From positions 2,586,883-2,650,882 of the forward strand of contig NC_089732.1 of NCBI RefSeq assembly GCF_035083965.1: DNA of 64,000 bases, in the 5' to 3' direction. This document shows, in pieces, positions 9,701-15,700 of the stretch. The notes beneath the pieces are model-generated. The model saw nothing but the letters and a program-made list of their open reading frames with translations, was not told the origin of the DNA and searched no databases. Position 1 is the first letter of the stretch; each line of letters starts with the position of its first letter. The stretch is from Branchiostoma lanceolatum. Taxonomy: Eukaryota; Chordata; Leptocardii; Amphioxiformes; Branchiostomatidae. The position numbers and the translations under genes are program-made.

Positions 9701-12700
9701 AAAATATGAATAATAAACTTCCAAGAGTCACTGTGCATTTTGAATGACCAGTGTCTCCATTTGGATCTACATGTACCCACTTCACCAACATTGCAGTACA
9801 CATTCAATGCCGTACAGGCCCTGCAAATTAATGTTACGGATGTCTGGAATAAAGATAAAGTGACATGCAACAAGAACTTAATAAGACAGACACGTGCAAG
9901 TAGACAGTCATGCGAGGCAGGCTGGTGCGAGAAATTATCATAGATTTAATTTAGCAAAATCAAGAGACTCTAACATCATGTATTCTGACAGTGATTGGTT
10001 CCACTTACTGCGTCTGCCATTTCTGCTGGAAGGGTGGAGCTGGGACTCTGCACACAAAGGGAGGAATCACAGCAAACAAGCTTCAATATCAAGCAGCATA
10101 ATCAGAAAAAAACTTAATGCTTTCACTGTCTCCCTTGTTCATTGGTGGAGACCTTGTATAATGACAGGGAGCCATGGAAATCAATGCAAAATAAATGTGT
10201 GAATTACTAATATCTTCAAAAGCCTTTCCTGGAGACACAGCTAAATCATACAGGGGTTCATCTAAATCAGGAAAGAGGGGCGCTGCACCCTCTTGTTTCA
10301 GCCCAGCACCCCCTTGTCGAATTAAGATTTTAGCTTAATATCCAGCATACAGCCTTCACTCAGCAATCGATTCTTCCATAAATACATAGAATTCGCTCCC
10401 TCGCCTGTGTGTGCTCCCTCTTGTTTAATTTTTCTAGAAAATAACCTGTCATATATATGTAAAGGATAAATTTGTTGAACTTGGTCTGTACTTTTAGCAG
10501 TTGTGGGGAAAGGGAGTACCATAGTTCACTGCATTTATTCCAGCAGTGGCAACAAAGTTCTAGCTGGCCTCAGTACAGTGATCGCTAGTCGCTAAAATTA
10601 AGTCACTGCTAACATATCAATACTGTACCTTTTCAGCGAGTTCTGATAGGTTGGAGGGCCCCCTGCTGTCGGTAGCGTCGGGTTCAGGAATGCCTCCGCG
10701 AGCCACGACCAGCTCGACAATCCCATGAGCCTTCTGGAGAATGGAGATGGCCTCCTGGTGAGAGATGCTCGCGTCAAGCAGCTGGTGGTCAATCGCCAGG
10801 ATCTGGTCACTTTCTTTAAGTCGGCCATCCCTAAAAAACAAGATAAGTTTCAAACATAGAGACCAAAATTTTCACCAGGGCTAACTCTCTATATAATATT
10901 ATTAGTCTGGATATGGTCACTCTCTTCCAGTCAGCCATCCCTAGAAGACAAAACAAGTTTCAAACATGTTAACCAGGGCTTGTTCTCAGTATAAGTCTGG
11001 GTGTGGTCACTCTCTTTTTAGTTGGCCATCCCTAAAAAAGCAAGATAAGTTGTAAACATGCATATGGAGAACAAAATTGTCACCAGGGCTAACTCTCTAT
11101 ATTAGCCTGGGTATGGTCACTCTCTTTTTAGTCGGCCATCCCTTGAAGACAAGTTTCGAACATGTTAGTTAACCAGGGCTTGTTCTCTGTCTTAGTCAGG
11201 GTGTGGTCACTCTCTTTTTAGTCGGCCATCCCTAGAAGACAAGACAAGTTTCAAACATGGAGTACAAAATGGTCACTGAGGCTAGCTCTCGGTATTAACC
11301 AGGATCTGGTCACTCTCTGTTTAGTCCGCCATCCTTCGAAGACAAGTTTCAAACATGGTAGCCAGGGTTTGTTCTCTGTTTAAGTCTGGGTATGGTCACT
11401 CTCTTTCAGTCGTCCATCCATAGATGACAAGAGACATGGAGCACAAAATTGTCACCAGGGCTAGCTCTCTGTATTAGCTTGGGTCTGGTTACTTTCTTTT
11501 TAATCGATAAACCTCTCTCTCTCTTTCAAATACAAAGAAGACAAGAAATGAAGCACAATGTAATATCCGAGTGGTTAGCTGGCCAACACCGGTAGTACAT
11601 GTATGTTACGGTACGGCTAAATCAATAAACAAATAAAACAAACAAACAAGCAAACATATCAACTCAGTCATGTTTGAGAAACAATTCTTACCCCAGTACC
11701 ACCATGTTGAAAGTGGTAGCACCTTCTAAATTACAATGATGAAAGCAGCTAAAAGCCACCAAAACATTGGTGAAAAAAGACTGTGATTGTGTAAAAGCAA
11801 TTTCTATAAAAATTTTTGATAACAAACCTGTCTGCCACCCCTCCAGGCTGTATGTCCTGTACAAAGATGCCCAGCTCTCCCCTGTTCTCACTCCTCAGTC
11901 CCACCACACTGAAGCCCAGACTTTCACCATAAACAAACAAACAAACAAACAAACAAACGTACCTGTCTGCCACCCCTCCAGGCTGTATGTCCTGTACAAA
12001 GATGCCCAGTTCTCCCCTGTTCTCACTCCTCAGTCCCACCACACTGAAGTCCAGACTTTCACCATAAACAAACAAAACAAACAAACAAACAAACGTACCT
12101 GTCTGCCACCCCTCCAGGCTGTATATCCTGTACAAAGATGCCGAGCTCTCCCCTGTTCTCACTCCTCAGTCCCACCACGCTGAAGCCCAGACTTTCACCA
12201 TAAACAAACAAAACAAACAAACAAACGTACCTGTCTGCCACCCCTCCAGGCTGTATGTCCTGTACAAAGATGCCCAGCTCTCCCCTGTTCTCACTCCTCA
12301 GTCCCACCACACTGAAGTCCAGACTTTCACCATAAACAAACAAAACAAACAAACAAACAAACGTACCTGTCTGCCACCCCTCCAGGCTGTATATCCTGTA
12401 CAAAGATGCCGAGCTCTCCCCTGTTCTCACTCCTCAGTCCCACCACGCTGAAGCCCAGACTTTCACCATAAACAAACAAAACAAACAAACAAACGTACCT
12501 GTCTGCCACCCCTCCAGGCTGTATGTCCTGTACAAAGATGCCCAGCTCTCCCCTGTTCTCACTCCGTAGTCCCACCACGCTGAAGCCCAGACTTTCACCA
12601 TAAACAAACAAAACAAACAGACAAACAAACGTACCTGTCTGCCACCCCTCCAGGCTGTATATCCTGTACAAAGATGCCCAGCTCTCCCCTGTTCTCACTC

Positions 12701-15700
12701 CTCAGTCCCACCACGCTGAAGCCCAGACTTTCACCATAAACAAACAAAACAAACAGACAAACAAACGTACCTGTCTGCCACCCCTCCAGGCTGTATGTCC
12801 TGTACAAAGATACCCAGCTCTCCCCTGTTCTCACTCCTCAGTCCCACCACACTGAAGCCCAGACTTTCACCATAAACAAACAAACAAACAAACAAACAAA
12901 CAAACGTACCTGTCTGCCACCCCTCCAGGCTGTATGTCCTGTACAAAGATACCCAGCTCTCCCCTGTTCTCACTCCTCAGTCCCACCACGCTGAAGCCCA
13001 GACTTTCACCATAAACAAACAAACAAACAAACAAACAAACAAACGTACCTGTCTGCCACCCCTCCAGGCTGTATATCCTGTACAAAGATGCCCAGCTCTC
13101 CCCTGTTCTCACTCCTCAGTCCCACCACGCTGAAGCCCAGACTTTCACCACAAACAAACAAACAAACAAACAAACAAACAAACGTACCTGTCTGCCACCC
13201 CTCCAGGCTGTATATCCTGTACAAAGATGCCCAGCTCTCCTCTGTTCTCACTCCTCAGTCCCACCACGCTGAAGCCCAGACTTCACCAAACAAACAAACA
13301 AACAAACAAACAAACGTACCTGTCTGCCACCCCTCCAGGCTGTATGTCCTGTACAAAGATACCCAGTTCTCCCCTGTTCTCACTCCGTAGTCCCACCACA
13401 CTGAAGCCCAGCCCTCCAGTCTCAGGCTTGTACAACTTGATGTTCTCCACTTCTCTGCCCTGAGCTGCAGCCTGGAGGTACGTACAGGGAAAAATGTTGT
13501 CTTAACCTCATTAACATATCTATTCAGAGTTTTGGTATAAATCTGGTTTTCAATCCTTATCGTTAGTCACTGACAAAAGACAGCGGATGCTGTCTGAAAC
13601 ATCTGACTGTTTTATCCAGTTGCTTGAGTAACTATTTTTGGCGAAGGGAAAAATGTGTCAGAAATGTGATTTCCTAGGTCATATATTGATAATTTTAAAG
13701 AGATTATCAAAAGGTGAAGCCACAGCACTTTAATTCTTATCCTTAGAAAATAAAGCTCTAGTGAAGGACTGCTGTTTTTTAAGTTTATGAACGTGTTATT
13801 CATGTTACTGTAGATGCAGAAATGTTCGCAGTGGTTTTATGTTTGCGGTTTTCGCGGCAACCGTTTCACCGCGAATTAAAAACCACTGCGAACATTTTGG
13901 CATAATACTGTAGCAGTATGTGACTATAGCAATACCGCAAAATTAAAACCACCTAAAACACTCCATTTTCCCCTTAGTGCAAAATAGAAACCACACAAAC
14001 TTAAATGCATTTACAGTATTCAATTTTGCAGTAGGGAGAAAATAAAGAGTTCACAGCTGTGGTAGTATTAAATTAGTGGTAAAGAGGTTACTGCAAAAAC
14101 CATGAACATTAAAACAGTAACATGAATTGAATTTGTAACTTGATATATGCACATTGTACACAGCAAGTTACATGACGTACAAATACCACAATGTAATTCA
14201 CAAATGTACTTCGACATGTCTGGGAAAATAAGCATAGTAAGTAATAGCTTTGGGAAAGGTTAAATTATATATTAATCAGGACAATGACCTAATTGAATTC
14301 TCTAACCAGGTCATTGTACAATCATATCAAATTTTTACCCCAAAATAGAGAGAGCAACAAGAAGAAAGCCCATTTTTTTTGTTAATCTCCACACAACCAC
14401 AACCCTTGCCAAGGAAGGGAAATCTGAAAACACAAACGATTTTTGCGCAGTCCAAAGATACATACATACTAATGCATCAACCAAAATTTACAACCTATAT
14501 ACATGCAGCTAAACAACTGTTCAAGTCAGTCCGTCTCTCAGAGTCAAACCAAAACCATTCCTAACCCACCTGGTCTAATGTCTTCACCAGACACATGGTA
14601 AACTTCAGCCTATCTCTCCGTGAACGAACCCTTTTACCCATCTTTGGAAACTCCCTATAATCTCAGCTTCTCTGGCCACGGTATATGTGTGAATACCAGC
14701 TCGTCAAAATGTGAATACGACACCACAATTATAATTAATATTTAATGACATCTTACCAATAATTCTCCCTTTGCCTGGCTACTCCTTATTCGCTTCTTCC
14801 AGCAAACTATTAATCATTTATTTCATCCTAACTCTGACTTATCCATCAGCGTCATATACGATCAAGTTAACGATATTTCATAACGATTATTACACATCAT
14901 GCCGATATTATTTAGAGTGTTGACACTAAAAGAGATGGTTTCAGATTCTCCGCAGGGGAGTTATATTACAAAGCTGTCATTTATAATTCATGAGTTCTAG
15001 ACAACTGGAGACAGGTTGAAAGAAATACTGACTAGAAGCATAAATGTTCTGCCCACAAAGCAGTAAATTTTCCTTCTTACATTTTCTCACAATGGTATCA
15101 GAATACAAGAAGAGAACAAAAATGCTTTCTAATATTACAGAGGAAGAGGATATGTCTATTCTTTGCCAAATCCCAACACTCGTGGTAATATTTTATTTTT
15201 GATGACTTACTTCCTTTGTTTCTATATACAGATCTAAGAAACAACAAAGACATAGAAAGGAACAAAATACTAAACAAAGAAAGTTAAAGATAAAATTTAG
15301 ATTCTCGATATTCAGCATATAATTTTTGCTCAAGAAGGCAGATGTAAGAAACAGCCAACTGCGCATCATTTTATAACACCTCATTCCTCACCTTTGATAC
15401 CTGAGATTCATTTCTCATCTTATCACACATGTCTCATTTGTTCATACCTGACATAAGTTTCTCATCTGTTCATGCCTACGGTAAGGCCCGATTTACACTC
15501 AAGTTTCCGGACTCGACTCTGTGTGTGAGGAGCTTTGGGATACTCAAGTGGAGTTTTCCTACTAGAAAACGTTACTTGAGTGACCTAGGGTCCTCTTTGC
15601 ACAGTCCTAAGTCGACTCCATCATCATCTGTCAGGCGGCTTGCCCGGACCAAGGTAGCTCTCTCTGTCCATACAACATGGTCCGCCATTACATGTAAGTG

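Follow-up and report, generated by a model that had tools for sequence, protein, structure and literature searches.

The PDZ1 locus and its exon copies

The 64,000-nucleotide stretch of the lancelet Branchiostoma lanceolatum genome analyzed here (NCBI RefSeq assembly GCF_035083965.1, contig NC_089732.1, positions 2,586,883 to 2,650,882 of the forward strand; this whole stretch is called the window, and all positions below are counted from its first nucleotide) carries on its minus strand a gene encoding PDZ domains, in which the end of one coding exon is repeated eleven times in the intron that follows it. When the two exons that encode PDZ1 are joined (13471-13320 and 10830-10629), their best match is the Multiple PDZ domain protein (PDB 2o2t, E 1.2e-38) and the second is the InaD-like protein (PDB 2db5, E 3.7e-33); these matches support the assignment of the gene as MPDZ/PATJ-like that had been proposed in a first-pass annotation of this DNA. 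The two halves yield a full MPDZ-like PDZ1, that is, an intact authentic exon stands beside the repeats. With a small PDZ profile, parts of four more PDZ domains are detected further downstream on this strand, each spread over two or three exons (nine pieces in total, two of them weak, with E 0.0085 and 0.038). Nine introns that separate true exons of the gene measure 424-2489 nt.

The copied portion is the last 93 nt (the 3' end) of the exon that bears the first half of PDZ1. Between positions 11700 and 13600 the end of this motif occurs twelve times on the minus strand, once in the true exon and once in each of eleven copies. The units and the exon that follows them are:

13320..13471, minus: true exon, first half of PDZ1 (start 13471, or 13459)
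13188..13280, minus: copy 1, 93 nt
13049..13141, minus: copy 2, exon part identical to copy 5
12910..13002, minus: copy 3, GGT in common with the true exon
12771..12863, minus: copy 4, GGT in common with the true exon
12635..12727, minus: copy 5
12499..12591, minus: copy 6, CTA CGG in common with the true exon
12367..12459, minus: copy 7, exon part identical to copy 9
12231..12323, minus: copy 8, loop glycine changed to D
12099..12191, minus: copy 9
11963..12055, minus: copy 10, loop glycine changed to D; GAA in common with the true exon
11828..11920, minus: copy 11, donor gtttgt
10629..10830, minus: true downstream exon, second half of PDZ1

The first-pass annotation had described eleven 93-nt copies spaced 132-139 nt apart, each bounded by an AG and a donor and each running from phase 2 to phase 2, and this description holds for every copy. 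The successive unit-to-unit distances are 132, 139, 139, 139, 136, 136, 132, 136, 132, 136 and 135 nt, and the spacers of 39-46 nt between the units are composed of gtacg and (tttg)n, with atggtgaaag at the end in nine of the eleven. All eleven copies have an AG directly before and a GT directly after them, and all have an open frame; ten have the donor CAG/gtacgt, which is that of the true exon, and the last has CAG/gtttgt. The claim that this exon carries a GLGF binding loop stands as regards the loop and its copies, but the first residue is S rather than G (SLGF), and the copies that start at 12323 and 12055 have SLDF. The true PDZ1 exon has an in-frame AG at both of its candidate starts.

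The array has a score of 2811 with 95% matches in Tandem Repeats Finder (TRF), which is far beyond chance. There are nine distinct types among its eleven copies. The exon parts of copies 7 and 9 are identical, as are those of copies 2 and 5, and a 295-nt stretch recurs at 100% identity at a distance of 268 nt, which is a double unit; together these identities argue for recent copying of a double unit and represent homogenization among the units.

Other exon-boundary repeats in the same gene

The PDZ1 array is one of five exon-boundary repeats in this gene, which together span about 13 kb. A second array occupies the same intron, and comparison of positions 1-17000 with themselves (plus strand, E up to 1e-4, hits inside the PDZ1 array and a CA repeat removed) finds three further duplications at exon boundaries, the remaining hits being dispersed repeats and (TTTG)n. 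The four additional repeats are:

10804..11506, minus: second array in the PDZ1 intron, in which the next exon's acceptor and first ~40 nt are repeated
6175..6393, minus: acceptor-side duplication at the exon starting at 6224 (parent 6175-6229; copy 6339-6393, with a stop)
3066..3824, minus: donor-side repeat at the 3963-3716 PDZ exon (parent end 3716; copies end at 3527, 3338 and 3152)
2451..2634, minus: donor-side duplication at the exon ending at 2605 (parent 2593-2634; copy 2451-2492)

With a second array in its own intron and three further boundary duplications nearby, the PDZ1 array is not an isolated half-PDZ exon array. The 10804-11506 array is degenerate; five copies upstream of the true site retain an AG before (G)GATGG, and in all five the phase 2 frame is closed by a stop no later than codon 9. 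In the 3716 array the junction AG gives 107 nt, not a multiple of three, in all three copies, although AGs further inside would be neutral. Of the six units that are at least 30 nt long, five are duplications at exon boundaries (P 0.0002 under random placement), but this enrichment is only indicative, since taking the unit that overlaps the exon as the parent was a matter of choice and the placement of one boundary (6090) is conjectural.

Splice sites of the copies

The acceptors of the copies differ from those of the true exons. Every one of the 11 true acceptors has a pyrimidine at position -3, irrespective of the AG chosen for PDZ1, versus none of the eleven copy acceptors, all of which have A there. 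Acceptor matrices, which are small and not independent of the consensus because the true sites were chosen from homology and AG/GT, score ten of the copies at -0.2 to 0.5 and one at -2.3 when the true exon is taken to start at 13471 (true sites 0.1 to 11.5, leave-one-out), and these ten rank at the 74th-77th percentile among 1108 background AGs. With the start at 13459 the copies score -3.5 or below and the true sites -2.9 to 12.6. A second AG, 12 nt inside the copies, scores -4.3 to 0.5 with the 13471 matrix or -1.3 to 1.8 with the 13459 matrix.

Introns between successive copies would be only 39-46 nt long, and none of the eleven spacers has an A from -11 to -36. The minimal productive length from donor to branch point has been given as 46 nt (PMC11291888), yet human introns of 37-65 nt are on record (PMC4463651), so short length alone does not exclude splicing; moreover, joining the donor at 13320 to a distal copy would leave no short intron, and length is no argument there. 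Phase neutrality at any given AG would be expected by chance in about one case in three. Read-through from the true exon into the first spacer meets a stop at 13283-13285. In the second array of the intron, two acceptor copies outscore the true sites (13.7 for that at 10940, 12.4 for that at 11231) with a matrix that includes their parent and so favors them.

The first-pass annotation had suggested that the copies might serve as alternative PDZ1 exons. Judged from these sequence features, their inclusion in messenger RNA is disfavored and appears unlikely: their acceptors appear weak, the introns between them would be 39-46 nt long with no A placed for a branch point, the loop glycine is lost in two of them, and their sibling repeats are not phase-neutral at the junction AG or have lost the frame.

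Silent differences and a mosaic parental exon

The copies differ from one another and from the true exon mostly at silent positions. Over the 30 full codons of the twelve sequences of the PDZ1 array (the junction base excluded) there are nine variable sites, of which eight are silent; about 26-31% of changes would be expected to be silent without constraint, and P is 1e-4 to 6e-4. For the 3716 array, parsimony over the exon, the identical copies 1 and 2, and copy 3 places 14 changes, 11 of them silent, and on the copies' own branches 8 of 11 are silent (by manual assignment; P 0.002-0.006). All three differences in the 2605 duplication are silent. When these three donor-side repeats are pooled, 22 of 26 changes are silent (P 4e-6 to 1e-4, under a null in which the parent exon was already permitted silent changes only), and when one excluded junction difference and the acceptor-side copy at 6224 are both added the count is 27 of 37 (P 5e-5 to 2e-3). 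The silent excess pooled over repeats indicates that a coding filter acted on the copied half-exons. In the 3716 array, the distal copy differs from its parent at 9 of 104 exon sites (8 of them silent) versus 17 of 74 intron sites, and this lower divergence in the exon fits such a filter. The acceptor-side repeats carry no coding-filter signal, with a stop in the single copy and stops in 5/5 AG-bearing copies of the 10804-11506 array.

The true exon itself combines, as a mosaic, variants that are now scattered over the array: its CTA CGG occurs also in copy 6, its GAA in copy 10, and its GGT in copies 3 and 4. In accord with this pattern, 9 of 36 pairs of sites fail the four-gamete test when the true exon is included and 1 of 36 when it is excluded; with the linked sites 25 and 26 counted once, the failures are 6 of 28 and 1 of 28, respectively. 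The spacers after the parent and the first copy of the 3716 array are identical (0 differences in 77); we reject this as proof of exchange, because a recent copy of the spacer plus unit explains it.

The silent excess can be explained in two ways: either the copies are translated, or they spent most of their past as exon ends and were brought into the array by exchange between the exon and its copies. We prefer exchange as the reading of these sequences, since the excess is also found in repeats that are not phase-neutral at the junction AG and since the true exon is mosaic. Heterozygosity in lancelets is 3.2-4.2% (PMC12862219), which could supply diverged exon alleles for such exchange.

Relationship to lancelet mirages

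Tandem repeats of exon-intron boundaries have been described in lancelet globin genes, and those in Adh3, cited in the same report, were termed mirages (PMC3087553); further mirages occur in PGBD5 and troponin C (PMC3902484). The repeats of BflGb6 number 6 and 3 units in two haplotypes, and the Adh3 data together with reverse transcription PCR suggest that mirages leave regular splicing undisturbed (PMC3087553). A predicted PGBD5 exon made of such repeats was dropped by its authors because there was no expressed sequence tag or mRNA support (PMC3902484). The PDZ1 unit likewise spans an exon-intron boundary (exon end, donor and intron start), and on the three sequence features compared the array appears to fit the lancelet mirage kind. 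The first-pass annotation knew of no described array of this sort; tandem exon-boundary repeats are on record in lancelets as mirages, and what stands of that statement is that we found no mirage-like boundary repeat described for a PDZ gene in the available parts of the literature.

The PDZ1 array, at 11 copies of about 136 nt, is larger than those of BflGb6 (6 and 3 units) and of PGBD5, whose mirages reach up to 7 x 60 bp and 6 x 108 bp. Among the known mirages (Adh3, BflGb6/BflGb9, troponin C and PGBD5), that of BflGb6 also shows concerted evolution and a difference in copy number between haplotypes. Unlike the known mirages, as far as the available text describes them, both ends of one intron are affected here and five boundary repeats lie in one gene; the mostly silent variation and the mosaic parent exon are not described in the available parts of PMC3087553 and PMC3902484. 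Introns of the amphioxus VCBP3 gene contain copies of exons, whole or in part, and some of these copies have canonical splice sites. They are similar in that they lie in introns adjoining coding exons; on the other hand, they were given there as data not shown, and the available text describes no repeat structure (PMC2632668).

Tandem arrays of exon-like copies are also known from genes such as Dscam, where the duplicated exons are mutually exclusive. Dscam-like arrays likewise have many in-frame exon-like copies in a row, but the PDZ1 copies are partial, have seemingly weak acceptors, encode nearly the same protein sequence and lack long introns.

Taken together, these observations make it likely that the PDZ1 array, like the lancelet mirages, is a minisatellite lying in an intron, and that it is spliced out with that intron and has exchanged sequence with the exon. 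It would have arisen by a tandem duplication whose unit began inside the exon and ended in the intron, and would then have been amplified to eleven copies by unequal exchange. The proximal donor at 13320 would normally be joined to the acceptor at 10830, and all of the copies would leave with the 2.5-kb intron. Exon and copies would also have swapped sequence by unequal crossing-over or conversion, probably between diverged haplotypes, and many of the copies would be former exon ends, hence their differing chiefly at silent sites. The mirage interpretation is favored by the presence of five boundary repeats in one gene, as in the mirage literature, which reports or suggests normal splicing, and by the absence of a -3 pyrimidine from the copy acceptors and of an A from -11 to -36 in the spacers and the stops in the opposite array.

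Several points weigh against this interpretation. Mostly silent differences are equally expected of translated copies, and exon and copies, with up to 7 changes in 30 codons, are strongly diverged at silent positions for what would be alleles. The numbers behind the silent counts are small; counting one excluded junction difference gives a pooled 22 of 27 (P 1e-5 to 3e-4), and the acceptor-side copy at 6224 has no clear silent excess (5 of 10, or 6 by an alternative path). With the 13471 matrix, ten of the eleven copy acceptors score near the weakest true sites (0.1 and 0.5). Recurrent mutation could explain the four-gamete result, and either it or a join of haplotypes in the assembly is a possible alternative source of the mosaic exon.

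The PDZ1 array probably belongs to a kind of lancelet repeat that is on record already, and its copies are numerous and well preserved. It adds a probable mirage with more copies than those in the available parts of PMC3087553 and PMC3902484 (the numbers for Adh3 and troponin C lie outside those parts), in a gene that bears five boundary repeats, two of them at opposite ends of a single intron. Should the exchange reading be correct, mirages are not dead copies; they would trade sequence with a living exon, preserve past silent alleles, and could return changes to the coding sequence.

Alternative explanations

We see a small chance that the array is in part an assembly artefact, in which two haplotypes were joined at the repeat or the copy number is wrong. 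Identical double units (the 295 nt at 100%) are prone to misassembly, the draft genome version of one mirage seems to have been aberrantly assembled (PMC3087553), and a haplotype join would also account for the silent differences between exon and array. However, the nine distinct types among the eleven copies indicate that most of the array is no simple assembly repeat, and the sequence of the PGBD5 repeats was confirmed when Sanger and Illumina data were re-examined (PMC3902484).

Two roles in splicing appear more doubtful still. In the first, the copies (93 nt, or 81 nt) serve as alternative cassette exons, one or more of which would be inserted between 13320 and 10830 and add 31-residue modules to PDZ1, which we take to be its betaB-betaC-alphaA part. 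All eleven copies are open and phase-neutral with an AG and a GT, ten have the true donor, their differences are largely silent, and U-rich (GTTT)n precedes each AG; if the true acceptor is at 13471, most of the copies also come close to the weakest true acceptors. Set against this are the A at -3 throughout, the poor scores of the second AG 12 nt inside, the loss of the loop glycine in two copies, introns no longer than the 46-nt minimum (PMC11291888; the short human introns of PMC4463651 temper this point), and a silent excess that extends to siblings that are not phase-neutral at the junction AG (although their inner AGs can be).

Just as improbable is a splicing decoy, in which the strong donors in tandem and, at the far end of the intron, the acceptors in tandem would rival the true sites and so adjust how often PDZ1 is included or send transcripts to nonsense-mediated decay. 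The shared donor of ten copies, the stop met on read-through into the first spacer, and the high-scoring acceptor copies at 10940 and 11231, whose use gives a stop (their parent being in the matrix), would all suit such a role, but a decoy would not favor silent codon changes, and published mirages are said, in the available text, to yield no aberrant mRNA (PMC3087553, PMC3902484).

Least probable of all is that the copies are translated, with low-level splicing inserting half-PDZ modules and purifying selection on alternative exons leaving the variation silent, a pattern that such selection would produce but that recurs in the repeats that break phase at the junction AG.

Other features of the gene and the window

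Pattern searches for relatives of PDZ1 gave 9 matches in viral contigs and 85 in prokaryote genomes, none of which was confirmed, as expected for an animal gene, and Rfam has no match at gathering scores over 10400-14600. A dispersed repeat of 191 nt is present at 10251-10441, in an intron of the PDZ gene, and again at 22560-22750, with 94% identity between the two.

Elsewhere in the window, a pair of open reading frames (ORFs) at 23540-28890 on the plus strand resembles a non-LTR (long terminal repeat) retrotransposon by Pfam; the first (23540-24889, plus) has a zinc knuckle (E 1.5e-4), and the second (24808-28890, plus) has endonuclease, reverse transcriptase and RNase H domains. Two minus-strand ORFs, at 57738-58106 and 61776-62108, match the N-terminal part of the LRAT (lecithin retinol acyltransferase) domain. 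At 47116-47236, 55209-55502 and 60107-60451 there are dispersed arrays whose units, 18-70 nt long, are built around GGATCCCTAACTCC, and 52731-53277 holds a large array in which a 21-nt unit (CAGAATTCTGTGAACTGGAGC) recurs, also with higher-order periods.

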